Below are positions 2 through 4,408 of a DNA stretch of 8,654 nt, piece after piece. How positions within the stretch are numbered: the first letter of the stretch is position 1; every line of letters begins with the position of its first letter. Location: positions 1 through 8,654 of the forward strand of contig JALSQH010000190.1 of the NCBI GenBank assembly GCA_026985515.1, given 5' to 3'. The position numbers and the translations under genes were made by a program. Below the pieces are notes generated by a model, which saw only the letters and a list, made by a program, of their open reading frames with translations, was not told the DNA's origin and ran no database searches. The DNA is from a bacterium (GTDB taxonomy: Bacteria > JALSQH01).

Positions 2-355
2 TTTTTTAAGAGAGAAGGTGATGACTTGATCTGCAGGGTTCCTATCAGTTTCCCTCAGGCGGCTCTCGGTGACGAGATTGAAGTTCCCACCCCTTATGGG
101 GTTGAAAGAGTAAAAATCCCCCCCGGGACTCAGCCAGGCACCGTTTTTACTCTTAAAGGAAAAGGTGTGGTAAATCCCAGAACTGGAAGGAAAGGAGACC
201 TCCATATTGAAGTCTACATAGAGGTACCCAGGAAACTGGATGCGAAACAGAAGGAGCTTCTAAGAGAATTTGAGAGAGAAACCAGACAGAAATACCCTCA
301 GAGGGAAAAGTTCTGGGAGAAGATAAGAAATATTTTTGCTCATAAGAGGAACTAA
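2..355 (+). CDS. dnaJ: Chaperone protein DnaJ, C-terminal part (5' end outside window)
   Basis: This is the last 117 codons of the Hsp40 co-chaperone DnaJ, which stimulates the ATPase of DnaK and hands it unfolded proteins in the cytoplasm. The frame is open from the window edge; the TTG at 26 is internal, because the codons before it already read as DnaJ (FKREGDDL). Recognisable pieces are the second C-terminal beta-domain with VPISFPQAALG, EVPTPYG and the IPPGTQPG...LKGKG hallmark, then the KLDAKQKELLREFE helix that leads to the dimerisation end. The J-domain, G/F region and zinc fingers must lie upstream. The tail after that helix (about 25 residues, rich in K, R and F) is not conserved in the family as I know it. 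The gene is convergent with the outer-membrane barrel gene, and its TAA (353-355) overlaps that gene's TAG (352-354). A CbpA-type paralogue is a less likely alternative. Confidence 0.93.
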   Translation, partial: FFKREGDDLICRVPISFPQAALGDEIEVPTPYGVERVKIPPGTQPGTVFTLKGKGVVNPRTGRKGDLHIEVYIEVPRKLDAKQKELLREFERETRQKYPQREKFWEKIRNIFAHKRN

Positions 356-1764
356 AAAGAGTATCTGATACCTGTTGTGAGAAAATCGTTTTTTCTGAAC
401 TGATACAGCAGAGAATCTTTTTCAGCATCAATTATATTCAGGGAACCAAAAAATGATATGAAATCGGAGTACTGGTAGGTGGCTTTCAGAGAGAGTATCA
501 TCTGATACTGCGTCAGCGCAAATATAAATCTTCCTTCCAGGGTTAGAGTATCATGAAAATAGGATCCTCGCAGGAGGGATATTGTAAAAATATTATCTCT
601 TTTAAAGAGGTATGTTTTTGCATTTGTGAAGAAATGTACCCATGTAATCAGTATGTTTCCATAAAGGTTGTGGGGAAAATTATAATCTGCACCTATGTTC
701 CATGTTAAGGAAGGAACATGCAAAAGCTCAAGATGGACATTGTAAATTGAGGAATTGGTATGCAATGCACCTTCACTTCTTATTCCCACGCTTTTAAAAG
801 TCGTGCTTATTCCGCCTCCAAAGGTGAATATCCTGTGAGGCTTAAATTTCATCATTGGAAGAAAGGAAATCTGTTCAAGGGGGGAAAGGTTATTGAGAGC
901 ATCCATTGGTTTATCAGTTGATTTTAAATATTCAACAAGATCAGGATTGAATTCAGGAAAAGGCATTTTTTCCCATCCATAGTGGATCGCTACCTGGTAA
1001 TCATAGCCTTCGCGGTAACTTTTTAAAAGAAAACCTATTTCTCCATTGAAGGGAGAATTTTTCGGGTAATCTGTTACATATGAAGTGGTACCACTTTCCT
1101 CAATATTAACTCCATATTCCTTCCTGTATTCCTCCACTGTTCTGTAATACATTTCCCTCGGTAGAATTGACCAGTCGGAGTTAATAAGAACAAAGTGTGA
1201 AGGCTTATAGAATGGTACATATATACCCTCAATGGTTGTTTGATCATTTACATAGTAATCTCCCCGGAGCATCAGAACAGGTAGTTTCGCAAAATCTTCT
1301 TCAGAAAAGATGAATTCATCCATTTCCTGGGGATTTACCACATCAATGGGACTCACATCAGAAACCCCCCAGGAAACTATCTGATTACCGGCAGTTATAT
1401 CCCATTTGTCGCTGCTTTTCTTGACGTAAAATTCAAAGGGTTGAAATCTGTTGTTAAAGTAATCGTTGTAGGATGAATGAAAGTAGTAGTATTTGTCCAG
1501 GAATGAGGAGAAGAAGGAAAAATTGCTTTTTATATCGCCTGAAAATGAGAGGTAGATACCGGTGATCCACTCTTCTGTGAATTCATACTTTGAATCCTGG
1601 TGAAGGTCGGAATTCAGTTTGGAGAATATTTTTCCTTCAAATTTCACTCCTGCTGTTTCGCCACCGAAAATGTCAAGCCCAAATTCCCCTTCTTCCGCAC
1701 ACAGAAGGAGAGGGAAAAGAGTTAAAAGGAAAACAGACAGGAAAATCTTAAATTTCTTTTTCAA
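352..1764 (-). CDS. Probable outer-membrane beta-barrel protein (DUF1302-like porin family), last gene of the envelope operon
   Basis: About 470 residues, the product probably spans the outer membrane. A signal peptide is plain: KKKFK, then a hydrophobic stretch ending near LLLCA/EEG. The rest alternates polar and aromatic residues as a barrel does and ends in an aromatic C-terminus (GIRYSF), the usual Bam-recognised signature. Around residues 126-145, GNQIVSWGVSDVSP followed by DVVNP resembles the 'G-Q-W-G-D-P-D-NP' block I associate with DUF1302-type and related porins; the exact family is uncertain. The frame stays open to an ATG at 1812, and another ATG lies at 1788. I prefer the TTG at 1764 because it directly precedes the Lys-rich n-region and has AGAGG (1769-1773) four bases upstream. 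The start overlaps the end of the LolA-like gene by 17 nt, so translation is probably coupled. A Cys precedes the cleavage region, but Leu before it argues against a lipobox. Confidence 0.72.
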   Translation of the reverse strand: MKKKFKIFLSVFLLTLFPLLLCAEEGEFGLDIFGGETAGVKFEGKIFSKLNSDLHQDSKYEFTEEWITGIYLSFSGDIKSNFSFFSSFLDKYYYFHSSYNDYFNNRFQPFEFYVKKSSDKWDITAGNQIVSWGVSDVSPIDVVNPQEMDEFIFSEEDFAKLPVLMLRGDYYVNDQTTIEGIYVPFYKPSHFVLINSDWSILPREMYYRTVEEYRKEYGVNIEESGTTSYVTDYPKNSPFNGEIGFLLKSYREGYDYQVAIHYGWEKMPFPEFNPDLVEYLKSTDKPMDALNNLSPLEQISFLPMMKFKPHRIFTFGGGISTTFKSVGIRSEGALHTNSSIYNVHLELLHVPSLTWNIGADYNFPHNLYGNILITWVHFFTNAKTYLFKRDNIFTISLLRGSYFHDTLTLEGRFIFALTQYQMILSLKATYQYSDFISFFGSLNIIDAEKDSLLYQFRKNDFLTTGIRYSF

Positions 1765-2518
1765 GGTACCTCTGTGTGAAGTAGGCATCTGGTATTTTCT
1801 TGTCCACAACAATTTTCTCGATGGTCAGGATAGTTTTGTGATGCGTTTTGAGGTTTTCCATAACGCTTTCCTTCATGATCCAGTAGTTTTTTATTTTTTC
1901 AAGTTTATTAACGGTAAGCCTCTTTATTTTTTTTCCTTTCTTATCGTACATTTCAGCCTTTACAGGAACAAAAATGTCTTTTCTTATCCATTCAACCACC
2001 TTGCTGTACTGGTAATCTGTACCTGGTTTAGGAATAGATTCAACAACATAACATTCATAATTTCCACACTTTTCTTCTCTCAGAAGTTTGTGGGTTGCTT
2101 TGTTTACTTTCACGCCCTCCATATCCTGGTATGAAAAATCTGTTCCCAGAAAGCTCTGATTCTTCTGGCTGGAAGAGATCCTTCTTGTTTTCTTCAAAGC
2201 CGGCAGATAGAGAAACTGGTCACTTTCCTTATCGGAGTTCTTGTAGTCCCAGATCAAAAATCCAGTGTTTCTTATGTCCGCAGGGGAGAGAAATTTCATA
2301 AGGGTTTTTGTCATATTTTTGTCTTCTTTAATGTAAGTTACAACTTCCCTTACCCTTTTGCTCCCCGATTTGCTGACAAGAATCATTTTCATTTTTGCTA
2401 TGGTTGTTTTGGGTTTGGGCTGATTATCAACTTTATGTATAATTTCCTCCCCCGTTAAGCCCCATAGAAGTCCTCCCGTTAACAAAAGAAAAACAGCCAC
2501 GAGAATTCCTCGCTTCAT
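1748..2518 (-). CDS. Outer membrane lipoprotein-sorting protein, LolA-like (TP0789 type)
   Basis: A 256-residue exported protein of the LolA/LolB-fold family typified by Treponema TP0789, thought to carry lipids or lipoproteins in the periplasm. Residues 1-20 are a signal peptide (MKRG, then a Leu-rich core ending LLWG); no lipobox Cys is present, so it should be soluble. Family hallmarks follow in order: TGEEII near 22, an amphipathic beta region, KFLSPADIRNTGFLIWDY (about 83-100), FLYLPALKKTRRISSS (about 110-125) and FLGTDFSYQDMEG (about 131-143). The start is secure: AAGGAGG (2526-2532) stands seven bases before ATG. It lies 44 nt after the hydrolase stop and overlaps the barrel gene, so it sits in the middle of an operon. 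In other bacteria as I recall, relatives of this protein occur with an MMPL/RND permease and a barrel protein; no permease is visible here. Confidence 0.85.
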   Translation of the reverse strand: MKRGILVAVFLLLTGGLLWGLTGEEIIHKVDNQPKPKTTIAKMKMILVSKSGSKRVREVVTYIKEDKNMTKTLMKFLSPADIRNTGFLIWDYKNSDKESDQFLYLPALKKTRRISSSQKNQSFLGTDFSYQDMEGVKVNKATHKLLREEKCGNYECYVVESIPKPGTDYQYSKVVEWIRKDIFVPVKAEMYDKKGKKIKRLTVNKLEKIKNYWIMKESVMENLKTHHKTILTIEKIVVDKKIPDAYFTQRYLEKEI

Positions 2519-2562: not shown

Positions 2563-3875
2563 TCATCTTGCTGAACCAATCAAGGATTTATGTGATCTCA
2601 ACCATCTGTCAACATAGTCAAAAACCTCTTCTGCATGGTTACCCATTAAAAGATCCACATGACCATAATCTTGAAAACACTTATATGTTTTATCTTTTGA
2701 GGAGATAACCCTGTATACCCGATTATAAATGTTTTCCCTGTTTACCAGCTTATCTGACCCTCCAGAAATCAGCAGAAGCGGCAGATTGATTCGATTCAGA
2801 TTTTTTAAGTAATCAACGGGTTTGCATCCGGGATAATCACATTGTTCCATGAATGTCCCATTTCTGAGCCAGCTGTGCCACTGCTGTAAAACTCGAGGTG
2901 AAAAATTGTCAAGACCCTTTTCAATGATGTAGTAAATTCCTTTAAGAAAAGTATTTTTTGTGTTCCAGATCATGTTAAGGACAAAATTTAGGGGTTCAAT
3001 TCCCATTTTTCTCTTTATGAAGCGGGTGAAAGCGTCAAGATGAGCTGGAAATTTTTCTCCAAGATATTTAAAAATTACAGGTGTAAGTAAATCAAGGAGA
3101 AGCGAAGCAGTGAAATTATTGGCCCATAGGGGAGGAGTAAGATGGAGCTTATCAAGTAAGGTTTCATTGTGTGTAAGAATATATGATGATTTTTCAATCT
3201 TTTCCCATGGGTAATCCGCAGCCATTTGCAGGAGTAAATCATAATCATAATAGTTGTGCCTGAGGAGAGACTTTAGCCCCTTTCCCTTTAAATTAACAGG
3301 GAAACTGAGACCAGCCGGACTGGCAACGGCAATAAAACCCTTCAATTCTCTATTCCTCTCCTCTGATAGTTTTTCGGAGGTAAACATTTTTAAGTATTTT
3401 TTCCATTAATTGTTACAGGTACTCCATAGACGCCCTCCAGATAGATGTACATAATTGTTCCACCCATTGAATGTCCAATCCAGAAGGGTTTTTCCCCGGT
3501 TCGTTCAGTCACGGTATGGATAATGGCAGGAACATCATAGGCAACAAAGGTATCTATGTCCCAATTTCCTGGTCCCCTGTCTGGACCGCTCTGATACTCT
3601 CCTTCACCATGCCCTCTGAGATTGGTTATCCATACATCGTAACCCCTGTCTGCAAGGTATTTTGCGAAGCTCTTTTGAGGATAATCCTAGCTGTTCAGGT
3701 TTACTGCAAAGCCGTGTTGAAGGATAACGGGTACCCCTCCCGGATTGTAGTATCTTCGAGCAACAAGTGTAACTCCGTCCGTTGTCTTTATAGTTTCCCT
3801 TCTTATCTCCCATGGGTAGGTAATGGAACCTGACAGGAAAAGAACAATTAAAATAAAAATCCATTTCTTAATCAT
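2563..3875 (-). pseudogene. Exported alpha/beta hydrolase (lipase/esterase-like), interrupted by one TAG and one -1 frameshift
   Basis: Read as one gene of about 437 codons, this is a serine hydrolase with a signal peptide (MIKKWIFILIVLFLSGS), so probably periplasmic or lipid-facing. Visible landmarks: VILQHGF (oxyanion loop, about residues 50-56), YDVWITNLRGHG, the nucleophile elbow GHSMGG with Ser136 (codon 3468-3470), GGSDKLV with Asp about 375, and DYGHVD with His about 406. All three triad residues are present. Two lesions split it: a TAG at 3687-3689 (codon 63, between NLNS and DYPQKSFAKYL), and a missing base in a six-A run (3397-3402 on the + strand as T's). One extra A there joins ...VTINGKKYLK smoothly to MFTSEKLSEERN. 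There are no other stops. Causes could be sequencing or assembly error, a recent pseudogene, or recoding (A AAA AAT is a slippery heptamer). It has its own promoter and is first in the operon with the LolA-like carrier. Confidence 0.82.
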
Positions 3876-3944: not shown

Positions 3945-4400
3945 CTATTTGAGAGGTTCGTCAGAAAATGAAGGAAGGGTTATTTTCCAGCCCTCGTCAC
4001 TATTAACGGCGATTAATTTTATTTGAAATGATTTTGTGAAGAAAAGAAAATGGTGAAAATAAACTTCGACAATTCCCTCAAAGTTCCCGTCCGGTCTTTT
4101 TTTACATGCAAGGAGTTTGATTCTCTTTACAATGGAAGAAGATATATTCAATTTTCTCCACTTCCAAGCCATTCTTACGATGAAAGTATAATAATTGTTT
4201 TCCTTCTCTTTTGAGGTACCCCTGAAAAATGGTAAAAGTTTTTTCTTAAGTTCGTAATGCAGGAAATCTTTCCCCGAAATTTCACTGATAAAGTGTTGAA
4301 TGATAGTGCATCCATTTGCTCCCTCTCTATTTTGATCAGCTGAAAGGGGAGAAAGGAATATGACGGCAGTAATTATAAGTGCAACAATTTGCATTTTCAT
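3945..4400 (-). CDS. Small exported protein of unknown function
   Basis: I do not recognise this 151-residue protein. It begins MKMQIVALIITAVIFLSPLSADQN, a clear signal peptide with likely cleavage after LSA. The mature part is basic (many Lys/Arg) and has a long helical-looking start (IIQHFISEISGKDFLHYELKKKL), then beta-like segments such as FEGIVEVYFHHFLFF and GWKITLPSFSD. That layout, helix then antiparallel strands ending in 'GWKI', is reminiscent of small SnoaL/NTF2-like or DUF4878-like exported domains, but this is only a resemblance. Two Cys are present in the mature part. The ORF can also start at a TTG one codon upstream (4403); I chose ATG 4400. A near-perfect promoter lies so close that the mRNA should begin at about 4402, essentially leaderless. 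It is transcribed in the same direction as the hydrolase operon, but 69 nt and a second promoter separate them. Confidence 0.7.
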   Translation of the reverse strand: MKMQIVALIITAVIFLSPLSADQNREGANGCTIIQHFISEISGKDFLHYELKKKLLPFFRGTSKEKENNYYTFIVRMAWKWRKLNISSSIVKRIKLLACKKRPDGNFEGIVEVYFHHFLFFTKSFQIKLIAVNSDEGWKITLPSFSDEPLK

Positions 4401-4408
4401 CAACTCAG

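Follow-up and report, generated by a model that had tools for sequence, protein, structure and literature searches.

A gene for an exported alpha/beta hydrolase, probably inactivated very recently by two lesions

We describe here a gene for an exported alpha/beta hydrolase which is interrupted twice and which we consider, with a probability of about 75%, to be a very recently inactivated, two-hit pseudogene of the ordinary kind. It lies on the minus strand of the window, i.e. the whole stretch of DNA analysed (contig C190, 8654 bases). An initial annotation had proposed three explanations for its state: a very recent pseudogene, errors of the assembly, or recoding. The first is the best supported, since the broken copy has no excess of amino-acid changes and since its ortholog and its paralog are whole; an assembly error keeps a minor share of the probability, and recoding is poorly supported.

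Results

Genomic context

The window belongs to an assembly of 2.36 Mb in 268 contigs, which is 97.6% complete. We compared it with G001, a MAG from the same family and a different genus and the single further genome of the phylum covered here. The hydrolase gene forms a minus-strand cluster together with a LolA-like gene and a DUF1302 gene; next to it, on the plus strand, lie thiC, a gene for a Yip1-domain protein and a gene for a DegP-like protease. The genes downstream of the hydrolase are intact, as the initial annotation had claimed: the LolA-like gene, of the outer-membrane lipoprotein-sorting type (1748..2518, minus strand; PF17131), is 81% identical to its G001 ortholog and is accompanied by the gene for the DUF1302 protein, of outer-membrane type (352..1812, minus strand; PF06980). 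Upstream, at 3945-4403 on the minus strand, we observed a gene for a small, putatively exported protein of about 150 aa, for which we found no match in Pfam or NCBIfam and no homolog in G001, the only related genome. This gene and the DUF1302 gene both end in TAG, in agreement with the claim that two neighbouring genes terminate with this codon.

One hydrolase coded in three pieces

At 3875-2563 on the minus strand, one exported alpha/beta hydrolase is coded in three pieces. From the ATG at 3875, the zero frame meets a first stop, TAG, at 3687-3689 and a second one, TAA, at 3390-3392; the -1 frame is open from a run of six A at 3397-3402 as far as the TGA at 2563-2565. The first segment (3690..3875, minus strand) starts with the ATG and contains a hydrophobic, signal-like N-terminus and the oxyanion motif HGF (3708-3716). 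The second (3402..3686, minus strand) is the continuation in the zero frame after the TAG and carries the motif GHSMGG (3459-3476), with the Ser codon at 3468-3470; Abhydrolase_1 is matched on these two segments. The third (2563..3402, minus strand) codes for the lid region and the C-terminal part, with the motifs GGSDKL (Asp codon 2752-2754) and YGHVDL (His codon 2659-2661), and is closed by the TGA. The TAG and the A6 run were thus found as first described, and the signal-like N-terminus and all four motifs that were said to survive are present. Read in the zero frame, the run stands in the context GGA AAA AAT and so contains A AAA AAT, which confirms the slippery-type heptamer that had been pointed out.

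We observed that the segments on either side of the split both score as alpha/beta hydrolase in Pfam, and that the pieces of the broken copy line up one after another along a single intact ortholog. At the level of the sequence, this makes the split a genuine one and not a chance juxtaposition.

The ortholog and the paralog are intact

G001 contains a syntenic ortholog of the hydrolase gene, in an arrangement identical to that of the window (the end of DnaJ, DUF1302, LolA-like, hydrolase). It is read in one open frame of 380 aa up to the edge of its contig, and the part coding for the signal peptide lies beyond the contig. At the position of the TAG it has a Trp, and across the region of the A6 run it has an unbroken frame and a different sequence. 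The genome of the window also contains a paralog (on contig C210), open over 403 aa, which has a Trp at the same position. The comparison with relatives that had been suggested as a check thus yielded two intact genes, free of either lesion. Since the ortholog is in a single frame with a Trp at the TAG position and the paralog is whole, neither lesion is conserved or ancestral. That a base was lost at the A6 run is what we infer from this comparison, backed by the single frame of both genes.

The best partner of the paralog is a second G001 sequence (on contig C260), with 58% identity, which suggests that the family already comprised two members before the genera diverged. No internal stop was found within the matched stretches of the other hydrolase relatives of the same genome, and searches of viral contigs and plasmids returned no close relative.

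Identity of the intact enzyme

The Pfam matches on the pieces, the ortholog and the paralog, together with the Ser, Asp and His motifs, identify the family as serine alpha/beta hydrolases. When a profile of the ortholog and the paralog was compared with solved structures, the best match was to the gastric and lysosomal acid lipases (PDB 1hlg, 1k8q, 6v7n), with a strong alignment at the serine elbow and weak ones in the Asp and His regions. The hydrolase has in common with these enzymes (Abhydrolase_1, PF00561; Hydrolase_4, PF12146) the HG oxyanion motif, the G-H-S-x-G nucleophile elbow and a long insert between Ser and Asp; its Asp and His align with the acid-lipase positions, the C-terminal part weakly. 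Unlike them, it is bacterial and exported, and the strong profile match is limited to the N-terminal ~110 residues. These features suggest that the intact enzyme has an exported lipase- or esterase-like function.

The broken copy shows no excess of changes

The ratio dN/dS, which had been proposed as a check, is uninformative against the ortholog because synonymous sites are saturated between the two genomes, and its value for segment 2 against the paralog, taken over a misplaced slice of 8 codons, was disregarded; we used in its place the private changes by codon position. These come from a relative-rate test between the broken copy and the G001 ortholog, over the segments open to comparison, with the C210 paralog as outgroup. 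We counted 33 private amino-acid changes for the broken copy vs 32 for the intact ortholog, and 26 vs 26 when only the part after both lesions is considered. The private base changes at codon positions 1, 2 and 3 are 36, 22 and 75 in the broken copy and 39, 31 and 68 in the ortholog, and the columns conserved in the family deviate in 6/49 cases in the former and in 4/49 in the latter. At the 95% level, at most about 15 extra amino-acid changes are compatible with these counts, which corresponds to roughly 0.03 neutral substitutions per site. On these counts, the gene has evidently been under normal selection for nearly all its history, and the lesions must then be very young, if they are real at all. 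An old pseudogene was rejected by the same test.

The hydrolase gene is the only interruption among the gene pairs compared

We also carried out a census of gene pairs between this genome and G001, on sampled contigs (~0.76 Mb of the former and 0.26 Mb of the latter). Among 74 pairs (21,287 aa), the hydrolase gene alone is interrupted. The other interruption flags raised in this census were discarded as shadow frames, tandem duplicates, or stops located upstream of start codons.

As a separate observation in the two genomes, we noted two large, apparently secreted proteins encoded in tandem (L127, G000 C180, 1523-6056, minus strand; L170, G001 C33), which are ~34% identical to each other and contain many repeats with Asp, such as DGYDNDGDGNID. 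The tandem arrangement of these secreted-type proteins is kept in both compared genomes of this small phylum.

Discussion

The hydrolase gene carries two lesions relative to an intact syntenic ortholog and an intact paralog, and has undergone little drift after its presumed inactivation. We propose that the ancestral product was an exported serine alpha/beta hydrolase, resembling acid lipases or esterases, and that the gene was disabled by a nonsense mutation and by the slip of one base in a short run of A. Translation would now halt after 62 codons, and an active enzyme is not expected. The lesions are probably real in the organism, in which the loss may be tolerable thanks to the paralog or to other hydrolases.

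In most prokaryotes, pseudogenes normally make up 1-5% of the genome (Liu et al. 2004, PMC522871). Those of recent origin have few disablements and are otherwise conserved (PMC522871). The hydrolase gene resembles them, with one nonsense codon, one frameshift, conservation elsewhere and an intact ortholog and paralog; we see no notable difference, the host lineage being merely poorly sampled. Its density of disablements, ~4.6 per 1000 residues, is below the typical value (PMC522871), as expected of a young pseudogene. Against a recent pseudogene, two lesions without a detectable missense excess imply a somewhat tight time window.

The main rival to the pseudogene is an error of the assembly or consensus, or a mixing of strains in the metagenome bin, such that the gene would be whole or the two lesions would come from different strains. 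In favour of this rival, the assembly is split over 268 contigs, one of the two lesions changes the length of a homopolymer by a single base, G001 is a MAG, and the lack of a missense excess is what a functional gene would show. However, the other lesion replaces a base, the homopolymer counts only six A, no interruption was seen in the remaining 73 gene pairs (about 20,900 aa), and the other hydrolase relatives in the genome have no internal stop in their matched stretches. Two independent errors within ~290 bases of one gene are unlikely unless local coverage is poor. With a lone interruption among the 74 pairs, a generally error-ridden assembly is unlikely and two independent local errors are improbable. 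We therefore estimate that an artefact of this kind is unlikely, with a chance of the order of one in several.

Much less probable is that the fragments are made as separate functional polypeptides: the C-terminal piece is indeed open over 274 aa from an ATG (at 3387), but no clear ribosome-binding site was seen before it, the split parts Ser from Asp and His within one fold, and the relatives are single chains, of which the fragments match parts.

Programmed recoding, in which readthrough of the TAG and -1 slippage at A AAA AAT would restore the full-length enzyme, seems to us the least credible explanation, and a low-level, conditional production of the exported hydrolase by this route, in this one species, is equally improbable. 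As in the programmed -1 frameshifting at A AAA AAN described in E. coli and IS elements (PMC4066793), the heptamer conforms to the X XXZ ZZN pattern, and it is in the zero frame; the frame resumes exactly at the A run, and coding constraint is preserved on either side of both lesions. However, the full product needs two events in series, and neither is needed by the ortholog or the paralog. In this genome, the 459 genes sampled hold 108 in-frame copies of A AAA AAT, and 239 of these genes have at least one heptamer of the type A AAA AAN; the presence of A AAA AAT in the hydrolase gene is therefore unremarkable. The 91 nt after the run fold no better than shuffled sequences (z -0.04), which gives no sign of a downstream stimulatory structure, and a search for an SD-like motif in the interval 6-17 nt before the run, taken from PMC4066793, gave none; a GGAG is located farther away. 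A stimulator is absent in some prokaryotic cases of -1 frameshifting (PMC4066793). Unlike the known A AAA AAN systems, the hydrolase gene thus combines a site which is not conserved in the relative, a motif common in the genome, no stimulator found and a stop codon upstream of the site.

The readthrough of TAG finds no more support. The gene of RF1, prfA, is present and uninterrupted; TAG terminates 75 of the 459 long genes sampled (16%), which extends to this sample the earlier argument against a TAG-recoding genome; and, of the 40 tRNAs found, the 38 that were read include none with a CUA anticodon. Neither a loss or change of RF1, nor a suppressor tRNA, nor an avoidance of TAG as terminator was thus observed. 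Programmed slippage had been called conceivable, and recoding as a whole fares poorly given the absence of both the stop and the slippery site in the ortholog, the frequency of the heptamer, the lack of a stimulator and the presence of RF1. In G001, the prfA match (L005, G001 C72:6531-7601) has one TGA inside, which may be an edge effect or a MAG error.

The very recent pseudogene that we favour is a small and clean example of how far the comparison with a whole ortholog and a whole paralog, combined with a relative-rate test, can go in deciding between recoding and pseudogene from sequence alone, and it comes from a lineage with two genomes compared. If the lesions are real, they would represent the ongoing loss of a hydrolase of which the genome also carries a paralog.
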